Shown piece by piece: positions 1,207-5,260 of a DNA stretch of 64,000 bases; the first letter of the stretch is position 1; every line of letters begins with the position of its first letter. A program made the translations under genes and the position numbers. The notes under the pieces were generated by a model, which ran no database searches, was not told the origin of the DNA, and saw nothing but the letters and a program-made list of their open reading frames with translations. The stretch covers positions 434,001-498,000 of the forward strand of contig CALSUY010000001.1 in assembly GCA_943840565.1 (NCBI GenBank), in the 5' to 3' direction. This DNA is from an uncultured Candidatus Actinomarinales bacterium. Its GTDB lineage: Bacteria > Actinomycetota > Acidimicrobiia > Actinomarinales > Actinomarinaceae.

Positions 1207-1668
1207 ATGAAAAAACTAATATTTATTCTGTTTTTTAGCTTTTGTAGCTCTTCAGTTTCTGTAGATAATTCTGCAGCAGATATACCTAATGATACAGTCA
1301 ATACCTCACCAACTACATTGACATACACTAACGAGTTAGGTGATTTTGTTATTGAAGATTTAACAAACAAGAAAACACTAATTGTTTTCTGGGCTGACTA
1401 CTGAGGTATCTGTCGAGAGGAGTTGCCTCTCTTAGAAAAGAATTTAGAAAAACTTTCAGAAACTTATGACATTATTGCGCTTGCACACAGTGAAGTTGAT
1501 CCGACTATGGAGTGGGTACAAAACAATTTAACAGGAAAATTAACAATTGGTTTTTCAACTAGTGAATTAAGAGATGAACTACAAGTAGTAGGTCAACCAA
1601 TATCAATTATTTTTGACACGAATGGAAATATTCTCAGTAGAGAATTTGGATACATACCTACGAATTAA
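1207..1668 (+). CDS. Thioredoxin/TlpA-like selenoprotein with in-frame UGA (UxxC redox motif)
   Basis: One reading frame runs from the ATG at 1207 to TAA at 1668 (153 sense codons) if the TGA at 1402-1404 is read through. Both halves lie in the same frame. The codons around it give IVFWADY-U-GICREELPLLEK, the TlpA/thioredoxin active-site region, with TGA exactly where the first, nucleophilic cysteine of CxxC belongs. Downstream the fold continues with a cis-Pro region (VVGQPISIIFD) and DTNGNI. The first 20 or so residues are hydrophobic with Cys13, so a signal peptide or lipoprotein is likely and the protein is probably extracytoplasmic. A 17-nt SECIS-like hairpin follows the TGA. Family knowledge: such proteins are membrane-anchored thiol reductases or peroxidase-like enzymes. 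The substrate is unknown. A gene finder would split this into two short ORFs. Confidence 0.82.
1415..1431 (+). promoter_or_regulatory. Candidate bacterial SECIS element
   Basis: Ten nucleotides after the UGA at 1402-1404 there is a perfect 6-bp stem, GAGAGG (1415-1420) with CCTCTC (1426-1431), closing the 5-nt loop AGTTG. Bacterial SECIS elements lie inside the coding region just 3' of the UGA. The minimal E. coli fdhF element is also a 17-nt hairpin about 11 nt downstream with a G-containing loop. Size, distance and a G/U-containing loop all fit. SelB binding is inferred, and no selA, selB, selC or selD gene lies in this window. Confidence 0.7.
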
Positions 1669-1736: not shown

Positions 1737-2855
1737 GTGAAAAAAACATTTCTTATTCTACTTTGTCTTTCTATGTTGTTAGTCGCATGTGGCGGCTCAG
1801 CAGAAGAGACAGTAGAAGAAACTGCATCTGTGGAAGAATCAGAATCACTTGAATCACCGGCAACAACCGTTGCTCCAGTTCTTGATAAGATAACATTCGG
1901 ATTTATTCCCAGTGCAGAACAAACAGATCTTCAAGACAATATAAAACCATTAATGAAAGTTCTATCTGATGGCTTAGGTATTGAAGTTGAAGGATTTGTA
2001 ACCAGTGATTTCTCTGGTTTATTAGTTGCAATGGGATCAGGTCAAGCTGATATCGGTGCCTTTAACACCTTAGGGTACGTTAACGCACTGAATGTATTTC
2101 CTACCAGAATTGAAGCGGTTGCTAAAGTTGTGCGTTATGGATCAGGATCTTATCATGGTACATTTTGGACAACTGACGTAAGTGTTTGTACTTCTCCACC
2201 AGTTATTGGAGCATTTGAAACTGTAAATGGTGTTCAAACGTTAATACCTGGTTCAGAAACTTCACCACCACCTGTAGCAGCGCTACAAGTTGGTTGGAGC
2301 TTTGGAGATAATGGTCTTGAACCAGAGGTACGAGATAATGGAACAGTTAGCCCTGGATATGCTTGTGAAGCAGATTTAAATTCAATGGTTGGTAACACAG
2401 TGGTCTTTGTCGAAGAAGGATCAACATCTGGTTACTTATACCCTTCACTGCAATTAAAGAACATGGGCATTGACTACACCAAGGACATTACACAAGTGTT
2501 TGCAGGTTCTCATGATGGAGTTATTACAGCTCTTTACAATGGCGACCACAAATTTGGTGTAGCTTACGATGATGCAAGAAGAACTCTAAGAAAAACTGCA
2601 TTAGACGTTGGTGAAAAGGTCATTGCAATTGGAATAACTGCAGAAATTCCTAATGACGTTGTCGCAGTAAGATCTGACTTACCTGAAGATATGAAAGCTA
2701 AAATATATACAATATTAAAAGACTACATATCAACAGATGAAGGATACGCGGTAATGGACGAGATTTACGGTTGGACAGATATTGTTCCAGCAGTGAACTC
2801 AGAGTTCGATGTTGTAAAACAAGCAGCGGACGAATTTGGTCTATACGATAATTAA
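1737..2855 (+). CDS. phnD: Phosphonate/phosphite-type ABC transporter substrate-binding lipoprotein
   Basis: A 372-residue periplasmic-binding protein of the PhnD/PtxB type. The start is GTG at 1737, supported by a strong Shine-Dalgarno (gcggagg) just upstream. An overlapping ATG at 1735 is followed at once by TGA. The signal peptide ends in the lipobox LVAC, so it is a lipoprotein, followed by an acidic Ser/Glu/Thr-rich linker. The mature domain carries ITFGFIPSAEQ, SDFSGLLVAMGSGQADIGAFN and FVEEGSTSGYLYPSLQL, typical of PhnD. It binds phosphonate, phosphite or in some actinobacteria phosphate. The sequence alone does not tell which. No C-P lyase or phosphite dehydrogenase gene is nearby. 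It is first in the phnD-phnC-phnE-phnE operon and separated from phnC by a hairpin. Confidence 0.9.
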   Translation: MKKTFLILLCLSMLLVACGGSAEETVEETASVEESESLESPATTVAPVLDKITFGFIPSAEQTDLQDNIKPLMKVLSDGLGIEVEGFVTSDFSGLLVAMGSGQADIGAFNTLGYVNALNVFPTRIEAVAKVVRYGSGSYHGTFWTTDVSVCTSPPVIGAFETVNGVQTLIPGSETSPPPVAALQVGWSFGDNGLEPEVRDNGTVSPGYACEADLNSMVGNTVVFVEEGSTSGYLYPSLQLKNMGIDYTKDITQVFAGSHDGVITALYNGDHKFGVAYDDARRTLRKTALDVGEKVIAIGITAEIPNDVVAVRSDLPEDMKAKIYTILKDYISTDEGYAVMDEIYGWTDIVPAVNSEFDVVKQAADEFGLYDN

Positions 2856-2864
2856 AATATAGAG

Positions 2865-2900
2865 ATAAGGGGTGGTTCGAAACTGCCCCTTATTTTTTTT
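2865..2900 (+). terminator. Intrinsic terminator/attenuator between phnD and phnC
   Basis: An 8-bp stem ATAAGGGG (2865-2872) and CCCCTTAT (2886-2893) with a 13-nt loop is followed by eight T residues (2893-2900). It sits in the 53-bp gap after phnD and before phnC. Partial termination here would let the binding protein be made in excess over the ATPase and permeases, a common arrangement in ABC operons. Confidence 0.8.
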
Positions 2901-2908
2901 GGGAAAAA

Positions 2909-3679
2909 ATGATAAAATTTGAAAATGTAGGTGTTGTCTACCCCGGCGGTGTAAAAGCACTAGAAAATATAAATTTAGAGATAAATGAAGGTGACTTTGT
3001 TATTATCGTTGGTTTATCAGGAGCAGGTAAATCAACATTACTTCGATCAATTAATAATCTTGTAAAACCAACTAGCGGGAATGTCGTTGTAGATGGAAAC
3101 CAAGTAACAAATGCTTCAAAAAAAGAATTGAAAAAAATACGTTCTGATATTGGTATGATTTTTCAAACATTCAATTTAGTAAATCGTTCCAGTGTTCTTA
3201 AAAATGTTCTTACAGGCAGATTAAGCCAGGTTTCAACAATACGATCTATCACTGGTCTCTGGCCAAAAGAAGACAAACAAATTGCTTTTGATGCTCTTGA
3301 AAGAGTTGAGATATTGGAGAAAGCATATGTACGCGGATCAAATCTCTCAGGTGGACAGCAGCAACGTGTTGGAATTGCTAGAGCACTTGCTCAAAAACCA
3401 AAAGTTATGCTTGCTGACGAACCTGTAGCATCTCTCGACCCAGTAACTTCAAGGGTTGTAATGAGCTACCTAAAAAAAATTAATCAGGATCTTGGTATAA
3501 CTACAATAGTAAACCTTCACTTTCTCGACCTCGCTAAAGAATTTGGCACAAGGTTGATTGGACTTAGGGAGGGAAATCTAGTTTATGACGGAAGTGTAGA
3601 TGACGTTTCCGATGCAGATTTTGAGAATATTTATGGTAGGTCTATAAAGTCATCAGATTTAATAGGAGAAGATGATTAA
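2909..3679 (+). CDS. phnC: Phosphonate/phosphite-type ABC transporter ATP-binding protein
   Basis: A 256-residue ABC ATPase. It has Walker A GLSGAGKST near residue 36, the Q-loop region IGMIFQTFNLV, signature LSGGQQQR, and Walker B VMLADEPVASLDP. The insertion around NVLTGRL, ending in SITGLWP, is characteristic of PhnC. It energises uptake through the two PhnE permeases encoded next. Its 3' end overlaps phnE1 by 8 bp, implying translational coupling. Assignment to PhnC rather than another importer rests on sequence and on the neighbouring phnD and phnE genes. Confidence 0.93.
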   Translation: MIKFENVGVVYPGGVKALENINLEINEGDFVIIVGLSGAGKSTLLRSINNLVKPTSGNVVVDGNQVTNASKKELKKIRSDIGMIFQTFNLVNRSSVLKNVLTGRLSQVSTIRSITGLWPKEDKQIAFDALERVEILEKAYVRGSNLSGGQQQRVGIARALAQKPKVMLADEPVASLDPVTSRVVMSYLKKINQDLGITTIVNLHFLDLAKEFGTRLIGLREGNLVYDGSVDDVSDADFENIYGRSIKSSDLIGEDD

Positions 3680-4454
3680 CCTACCTAAAAAACCACCACC
3701 ATCTTTAATGGTATTCTTAGGCATTCCAGCAGCATTTTTATTTTCTTACTATTGTTTTTCAAAAGTTGGATTTAACTTATCAGACTTTAGAGAAAATCTA
3801 CAAAATAGATACATAGTTACAGATCCCCTTTTTAATCCAAAATGGAGTTGGGCAATTGAAAATGCTTCTGAAGCAATAATTGAAACTATACAGATTGCTA
3901 TCCTTGCCAGTATTGTTGGCTGTTTTATTGCGCTCCCTCTATCTTTCTATGCTTCACAAACTACAAACCAAAACAAGATTTCATTTTTCTTGTACAAGTC
4001 TTTCCTGAACCTAGTACGAACAATTCCCGATTTGTTTTGGGCTATGATGTTTACTGTTGCTGTAGGCCTTGGCCCTTTTGCTGGAGTATTAGCACTGGTA
4101 ATGTTCTCATTAGCCATTATGGGTAAACTTCTTTCAGAGACAATTGACAGTATTGATCCGGGTCCATTAGAAGCTGCAAAATCTTCGGGTGCATCTCACA
4201 ATCAATCGGTGTTCACATCCGCACTACCTCAAGTCTTACCGAACTTTACAGCTTATTTTCTCTACATCTTTGAACTATGCATAAGAGCAAGTGTAATTCT
4301 AGGTCTTGTTGGTGCAGGTGGTGTTGGTAGGATAATTGAAACACAGAGAATATTTTTAAGATTTGATAGAATTTCACCAATTATTGTTTTGATACTAGTA
4401 GTAGTCATTTTGATAGAGCAATTTAGTGTCTGGTTGAGGAGGCGAATTCTATGA
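3672..4454 (+). CDS. phnE: Phosphonate/phosphite-type ABC transporter permease 1
   Basis: A 260-residue inner-membrane permease with several hydrophobic helices and the cytoplasmic coupling loop GPLEAAKSSGASHNQSVFTSALPQV, the EAA motif of PhnE. ASVILGLVGAGGVGR near the C-terminus is also typical. It overlaps phnC by 8 bp and phnE2 by 4 bp (ATGA-type). Two unequal PhnE subunits probably form a heterodimeric channel, as in the mycobacterial PhnDCE-type phosphate importer. Confidence 0.92.
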   Translation: MINLPKKPPPSLMVFLGIPAAFLFSYYCFSKVGFNLSDFRENLQNRYIVTDPLFNPKWSWAIENASEAIIETIQIAILASIVGCFIALPLSFYASQTTNQNKISFFLYKSFLNLVRTIPDLFWAMMFTVAVGLGPFAGVLALVMFSLAIMGKLLSETIDSIDPGPLEAAKSSGASHNQSVFTSALPQVLPNFTAYFLYIFELCIRASVILGLVGAGGVGRIIETQRIFLRFDRISPIIVLILVVVILIEQFSVWLRRRIL

Positions 4455-5260
4455 ATCTCCCTAAACAACCCGTACAACAAAAAGTTCTTAAATATGCCAT
4501 TACAAGTCTTATCGTTGCAGGTTCTATCTGGTCAGCTTCAGGTTTAGAGATAACTCTCGAGAAAATTCTTAAAGCACCTGAACAGATAGCAATATTAGTT
4601 GGTGCTATGTTTCCTTTAGACTTAAGCCAAGAAGCTATTGAAAGAATCCTACCAAAGGTTGCAGAGTCTCTCTTCATAGCTTGGGCAGGAACAGTTATAG
4701 GAGCAATTTTTAGTTTCCCGATAGCGTTCTTAGCAGCAAATAATGTTGCAGTTAACTATGTATCTGAAGCAACAAAACAAATACTAAATGGAATAAGAGC
4801 ATTTCCAGAACTTATCCTCGCATTCGTATTTCTTCCAATTACTGGTTTAGGTGCACTCACTGGAACGCTAGCAATAGGTATTCACTCAATCGGTACATTA
4901 GGTAAGCTATCTTCTGAAGTTATTGAAGGTATAGATGAAGGACCACTTGAGGCAATCAAATCATCTGGTGGATCAAAGATAAATGAACTTTTATTTGGAG
5001 TTGTTCCACAGGTTATGCCAACCATTACTTCTTACTGGCTATACAGATTTGAAATAAACTTACGTGCATCAGCTGTATTAGGCGTTGTTGGAGCAGGTGG
5101 CGTAGGTGCAGAACTTATAAATCAATTAAGATTTAGAGACTTTCCAAGAGCTGGCACCGTATTAGTTGCAACAGTAGTTTTAGTGTTAACTGTTGATACT
5201 ATTTCTGCTGCAATAAGAAGAAGAATTATTAAAGGAAGATCAATAAAAATAGATCAGTAG
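4451..5260 (+). CDS. phnE: Phosphonate/phosphite-type ABC transporter permease 2
   Basis: A 269-residue second PhnE. It shares the EAA loop (GPLEAIKSSGGSKINELLFGVVPQV) and ASAVLGVVGAGGVGAEL with permease 1, consistent with an old duplication. Its N-terminus has a longer first loop. It begins inside the last codons of permease 1 (4-bp overlap) and ends the operon. It converges with ftsK with only a 14-bp spacer, and no clear terminator is visible between them. Confidence 0.92.
   Translation: MNLPKQPVQQKVLKYAITSLIVAGSIWSASGLEITLEKILKAPEQIAILVGAMFPLDLSQEAIERILPKVAESLFIAWAGTVIGAIFSFPIAFLAANNVAVNYVSEATKQILNGIRAFPELILAFVFLPITGLGALTGTLAIGIHSIGTLGKLSSEVIEGIDEGPLEAIKSSGGSKINELLFGVVPQVMPTITSYWLYRFEINLRASAVLGVVGAGGVGAELINQLRFRDFPRAGTVLVATVVLVLTVDTISAAIRRRIIKGRSIKIDQ

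Follow-up and report, generated by a model that had tools for sequence, protein, structure and literature searches.

The open reading frames at positions 1207–1404 and 1405–1668 of the window, by which we mean the whole 64,000-nucleotide stretch of DNA analyzed here, almost certainly form a single gene, in which the UGA at 1402–1404 is read as selenocysteine (Sec). As the original prediction had it, the two frames are in the same phase and parted only by this TGA. Read through, the gene (1207–1668, forward strand, as are all features below unless stated otherwise) encodes a protein of 153 residues that terminates at a TAA codon (1666–1668) and has the sequence ...TLIVFWADY-U-GICREELPLLEK... 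around Sec, residue 66. The TGA occupies the position of the first cysteine in the CxxC motif of TlpA/ResA-type proteins; the second, resolving cysteine is encoded by TGT at 1411–1413, giving U-G-I-C, and is invariant in the alignment. In G000, the assembly to which the window belongs, TGA serves as a regular stop codon and ends 113 of 461 long open reading frames, which excludes a change of the genetic code as the cause of the in-frame TGA. Ordinary software would cut the gene in two at this codon, as had been anticipated.

Of 34 further genomes from the genus, 28 contain an orthologue. A single TGA, located at the identical codon, occurs in every one of these 28, and none has a Cys form at this position; the six genomes without an orthologue are incomplete assemblies (60–82%). 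The original prediction had named TGT or TGC in independent reads as evidence against itself, and TGA is found not only in the 28 genus genomes, but also in a contig that was assembled separately from a near-identical population (JACNGE010000013.1, L009; 99% amino acid identity). The 28 orthologues share the same architecture at pairwise identities of 47–82%, and on either side of the TGA, dN is far lower than dS, with values of 0.06–0.34 and at least 0.86, respectively, in the 3′ part, as expected under purifying selection. One criterion for selenoproteins, the conservation across species of an in-frame UGA together with the protein downstream of it, is therefore seen in all 28 genus orthologues, and also in five from elsewhere in the class.

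Throughout the genus, the gene adjoins a divergent cinA gene. Between it and ftsK, the window carries phnD-phnC-phnE-phnE (1737–5260), which encode a phosphonate-type ABC transporter. These genes are absent from three loci (L021, L022 and L032), where ftsK directly adjoins the selenoprotein gene, and they form a mobile or flexible cassette; we rejected a functional link between transporter and selenoprotein on account of these absences. The contig PAEE01000009.1 (L010), labelled as Euryarchaeota archaeon MED870, carries cinA, the Sec-containing TlpA gene and phnDCE at 65–94% identity to the window, and almost certainly represents actinobacterial DNA with a wrong label or in the wrong bin.

The TGA is followed by a hairpin (1415–1431; GAGAGG-AGUUG-CCUCUC) that has the features of a bacterial SECIS element. 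It consists of the spacer GGTATCTGTC (1405–1414), the 5′ strand GAGAGG (1415–1420), the loop AGTTG (1421–1425) and the 3′ strand CCTCTC (1426–1431), that is, of a perfect 6-bp stem with a 5-nt loop that starts 10 nt after the TGA, exactly as predicted; the loop begins 17 nt after the UGA. Among the 26,386 TGA triplets on both strands of the whole assembly, this is the only one with such a hairpin when the geometry is defined strictly (6-bp Watson–Crick stem with at least four G/C, 5-nt loop, 10-nt spacer), and 31 (about 0.1%) pass a loose definition (spacer 8–27, loop 3–8). While the folding energy (z −1.75) is weak evidence taken alone, conservation and covariation make the element persuasive. 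Every one of the 144 cells that the six stem pairs span across 24 distinct genus sequences is paired. Pair 16–28 shows a compensatory exchange, with C-G in 15 and G-C in 9 sequences, and pair 17–27 occurs as A-U, G-U or G-C. The covariation score of 0.344 is reached by 0 of 500 shuffles (0.209 ± 0.020), and sliding the pairing partner lowers stem pairing to 48–72%.

The protein encoded under the hairpin reads REELPLLE with the G-C form of pair 16–28, and RQELPVLE or RRELPVVE with the C-G form. Across 1415–1431 and its equivalents in the orthologues, the residues E...L track G-C and Q/R...V track C-G, an amino acid covariation that we attribute to the pairing of the RNA. In more distant members of the class, the element takes the form CGGGAGUUGCCCG, with an identical loop in most of them. 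The hairpin thus lies just 3′ of the UGA, has a short, G/U-containing apical loop (AGUUR) and covaries, in line with the criteria for bacterial SECIS elements. A bulge conserved as in Escherichia coli fdhF is absent from the genus hairpin, and an Rfam search of positions 1000–2000 returned no match above the gathering score.

The protein itself falls into the TlpA/ResA-like superfamily (AhpC-TSA/Redoxin clan, cd02966-like) by its fold, its (C/U)xxC motif at the N-terminal end of the first helix, its cis-Pro loop and its Pfam matches. It scores 29.8 bits against AhpC-TSA (PF00578; cut-off 26) and also exceeds the cut-offs of Redoxin (PF08534) and Thioredoxin (PF00085). An AlphaFold2 model based on a 17-row alignment (pLDDT 83) has a thioredoxin fold with U66 at the N-terminal end of a helix spanning residues 67–78, and the invariant Gln-Pro pair of the cis-Pro loop is encoded at 1594–1599 (Q130-P131). 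The N-terminus is hydrophobic and resembles a signal peptide (1207–1245) that ends in a nearly invariant, lipobox-like cysteine (residue 13, codon 1243–1245); canonical lipoboxes (AAAC, VAAC or IAGC) are found mainly in relatives from the class, and that of the window protein is atypical, with Phe at −1. The earlier label of ‘thioredoxin’ holds for the fold and the UxxC motif, but the protein is TlpA/ResA-like and predicted to be exported in the manner of a lipoprotein, rather than being a classical cytoplasmic thioredoxin.

Its best structural matches in Foldseek are ResA, DsbE, Etrx1/2, StoA and TlpA. With ResA and StoA of Bacillus, TlpA, DsbE/CcmG and the pneumococcal Etrx1 and Etrx2, it shares the fold and the position of the active site (E around 1e-8), and these proteins are exported or lipid-anchored, as is predicted for the window protein; they differ in having CxxC in place of UxxC, and the identity in structural alignments is just 14–23%. 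Assignment to ResA proper (NF002854) was rejected at 33.2 bits against a cut-off of 170. The ResA-like WAxxUGC_long family (NF041054) resembles the window protein in its ResA-like domain and in Sec within a WAxxU context, but has UGC where the window protein has UxxC, and was likewise rejected as an assignment (27.1 bits against a cut-off of 300, different length and motif).

Outside the genus, Sec orthologues with a hairpin as in the genus are found in five of the 24 other genomes of the class (G035, G049, G053, G040 and G045). All five belong to the 12 genomes with a SelB above the cut-off (Fisher p 0.04, a statistic that ignores relatedness). The alignment of homologues proposed in the original prediction, which shows Sec in 28 of 28 genus orthologues, also uncovered a Cys form: G056, which is 97% complete and belongs to the same family as G035, G049 and G053, encodes an orthologue with Cys in place of Sec (WAEWCPKC), and its hairpin is lost. 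Neither selA nor a SelB above the cut-off was found in G056, so that a Cys homologue at the Sec position occurs in an organism without Sec machinery, a further criterion for selenoproteins. Because its Cys protein groups with the Sec proteins of the class in the tree (support 92/94), Sec was probably replaced by Cys in the lineage of G056. More distant exported TlpA-like proteins of the class with WAPYUVTC (G041), WAPHUPAC (G036) or WAPHUPVC (G047), at loci among L217–L220, may represent further unlisted selenoproteins; a match in G057 (L217) contains TGA. Another candidate homologue, from Bacteroidetes (L011), was rejected as a plain Cys TlpA.

A search for selA, selB, selC and selD, as originally proposed, gave a twofold answer. 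The window's own assembly (640 kb in 4 contigs, listed as 70.6% complete) contains no selA, selB, selD or tRNA-Sec above the cut-off, and an EF-Tu-like match at C1:342120 was rejected as SelB, being a two-domain GTPase that resembles Der/EngA. The sister genomes, by contrast, have the machinery: tRNA-Sec(UCA) scores 71–78 bits in 33 of the 34 same-genus genomes, and ARAGORN reports tRNA-SeC(tca) at both genus loci tested; selD was found in all 20 genus genomes searched and selA in 18 of these 20, with selB adjoining selA. By our reading of the search table, about 28 of the 34 genomes have selB-like open reading frames. With 164–223 bits, their products remain below the NCBIfam cut-off of 242 (TIGR00475), but the one tested has a SelB-wing_3 domain (PF09107) above the cut-off and adjoins selA; we therefore read the genus SelB as divergent, yet working like SelB.

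A comparison with G006, a genome of the same genus, accounts for the difference. Most of its contig C1 and C3:110–198 kb have counterparts in G000, whereas C2:0–220 kb, C2:250–380 kb and C3:0–100 kb have virtually none. The sel genes of G006 all lie inside these missing blocks (selAB at C2:133–136 kb, selD at C3:38 kb and selC at C3:65 kb), and the genes that flank selAB and selC, roughly ten in either direction, are all missing from G000 as well. Since these loci and their flanks fall into contiguous missing blocks, the absence of the sel genes from G000 is, judging by this comparison, an assembly gap. By its own account, the original prediction would fail if a complete genome from this population had no Sec machinery; such a lack is encountered on the surface only, as the own assembly is without the large chromosome blocks that hold the sel genes in relatives. 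Despite the listed completeness, orthologue-like matches exist in G000 for only about 46% of the G006 open reading frames of at least 150 residues, and its contig C4 (11 kb) duplicates part of C1:248000–260000 at 94–100% identity, pointing to strain redundancy in this metagenome-assembled genome (MAG). Sequence analysis establishes the Sec codon, the SECIS element, the conservation of both, and the machinery in sister genomes.

The in-frame TGA could be explained in other ways. It might be an ordinary stop, ending a decayed or truncated TlpA gene or separating two independent short genes, and both the normal use of TGA as a stop in G000 and the own assembly's lack of Sec machinery are compatible with this. 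Yet, the recurrence of this TGA in 28 further genomes of the genus and in five from the rest of the class, protein-level selection on both of its sides, the constant synteny with cinA in the genus and a covarying hairpin leave this explanation a very slim chance. A sequencing or assembly error that conceals a true TGT, TGC or TGG deserves even less credence: single-assembly errors do produce in-frame stops in MAGs, but the same TGA in the independently assembled L009 and in 28 further genomes shows that it is not such an error, and this alternative is already refuted.

Two further explanations accept that the codon is, or was, read through. UGA is known to be read as Trp in other bacteria, and a misreading as Trp or Cys or a code change might take the place of Sec here; we regard this as highly improbable, given that TGA terminates 113 of the 461 long frames, that G000 has just two convincing read-through genes, both with UxxC and a SECIS element, that the genus possesses selA, selB, selD and tRNA-Sec(UCA), and that the residue is Cys in G056, which has no selA. 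Alternatively, the gene could be a relic, a former selenoprotein gene in a population that has lost its Sec machinery. All four sel genes are indeed missing from the 640-kb assembly, but they fall within contiguous missing blocks (G006 C2:0–220 kb and C3:0–100 kb are almost without G000 counterpart), and the roughly ten neighbors to either side of selAB and of selC are likewise absent; moreover, the second selenoprotein gene is intact and neither hairpin has decayed, so we consider a relic highly improbable as well. Reading the UGA as Sec remains the explanation that we strongly favor. It rests on the genus-wide TGA, the covarying SECIS element, the Sec machinery of sister genomes, the Sec orthologues in the class and the Cys form in a relative without selA.

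The second gene was found in a codon-usage scan at C1:120184–120657 of G000 (+ strand; L115:184–657), with TGA at 120430–120432 (L115:430–432). Its product has an N-terminal hydrophobic region, by eye about two membrane helices, followed by a thioredoxin domain with the motif YSDY-U-LGC, and its hairpin (AATTCAT-AGTTA-ATGAATT) has the SECIS loop AGUUA. All of its orthologues, which occur in 27 further genomes of the genus, contain a single TGA, and those inspected conserve TTCAT-AGTTR-ATGAA or a paired variant. By these features, the gene encodes a membrane-anchored UxxC thioredoxin selenoprotein, and the AGUUR loop in the hairpins of both genes suggests the specificity of the lineage's SelB. 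A naive six-frame conservation scan for UGA genes had yielded more than 1,700 mostly off-frame matches and stayed noisy after a third-position filter; the codon-usage filter left 53 sites in G000, and only two of these, in the window gene and in this one, resemble Sec sites. A scan for hairpins plus coding potential found the same two genes convincing, the other matches being low-complexity or short frames. The genus SelD is itself a Sec protein, with HG(A/S)G-U-ACK (L083–L088; G006 C3:37971–38894); it was missed by the hairpin and coding scan because its Sec lies near the N-terminus, and was found by a family search. The window protein would hence be one of at least three selenoproteins in the lineage, and at least three genes in each genome would be cut short at the Sec codon by standard annotation: the window gene, the second thioredoxin gene and selD.

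As a kind, UxxC thioredoxin-like selenoproteins are already known. Thioredoxin-like and Prx-like examples were described from the Sargasso Sea in 2005 and from the Global Ocean Sampling (GOS) data in 2008, namely the Sargasso ‘thiol-disulfide isomerase-like protein’ and ‘Prx-like UxxC’, and the GOS ‘Trx-like 1’ and ‘Prx-like 1’ (PMC1088965; PMC2398784), and a 2026 review includes a UxxC selenoprotein family of the TlpA-like type (cd02966; PMC13188914). These marine proteins resemble ours in their thioredoxin fold, Sec in the first position of UxxC, a SECIS element just 3′ of the UGA, the marine source and the frequent occurrence of Cys homologues. They were mostly unassigned reads, whereas the window gene comes with a known host lineage, Sec machinery and genomic context. 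The window gene may be among the published Sargasso and GOS reads, a likeness drawn from their description. In the literature searched, no paper combines Actinomarina and selenocysteine, the main Actinomarinales genome paper makes no mention of selenium (PMC7771536), and the probable host, Candidatus Actinomarina, appears to be unreported for a UxxC selenoprotein.

Taken together, the product is probably an exported, lipid-anchored oxidoreductase of the TlpA/ResA type with U66 of UGIC as the attacking residue. We infer the actual incorporation of Sec, as well as export, lipidation, redox direction, substrate and partner. Sec-tRNA would be made by SelD and SelA, and SelB-GTP-Sec-tRNA-Sec(UCA) would bind the hairpin at 1415–1431 via its C-terminal winged helices and deliver Sec at the UGA (1402–1404). 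After export, the selenolate would most likely reduce, or isomerize, disulfides or oxidized thiols outside the membrane, and the likeliest role is that of an extracytoplasmic thiol/selenol reductase. The oxidized protein would probably be recharged by a membrane protein of the CcdA/DsbD-TM type, which is encoded elsewhere in the genome, at C1:301302–301913 of G000, and in most genus genomes searched. ResA/TlpA/Etrx-type proteins are served by CcdA/DsbD-type donors, and the CcdA-like gene of G000 matches this donor type; by analogy with ResA and Etrx, we consider a CcdA-fed reductase role reasonably probable.

The original prediction had considered selenoproteins unexpected in streamlined marine actinobacteria. 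The source organism does belong to this group, probably to Candidatus Actinomarina, with about 34% GC (33.8% in G000, 32.3% in G006) and relatives of 1.0–1.1 Mb, and the full Sec machinery is found in its genus; the Actinomarinales genome paper gives 1.1 Mb and 32.5% GC (PMC7771536). An extremely streamlined actinobacterial genus would bear the cost of four genes dedicated to the use of selenium. A tentative possibility, toward the doubtful side, is that this lineage, among the most streamlined of the free-living marine ones, keeps the whole pathway mainly for selenium-based reduction at the cell surface, in a line that leads from CcdA/DsbD-TM to the Sec lipoprotein and the membrane-anchored UxxC thioredoxin, with just one more selenoprotein found, the Sec-containing SelD. 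The gene gives a host to at least some of the marine UxxC selenoprotein kinds that were seen as unassigned reads in the surveys of 2005 and 2008, and the exchange of Sec and Cys within one family, between G035, G049 and G053 on the one side and G056 on the other, represents a natural experiment on why Sec persists.
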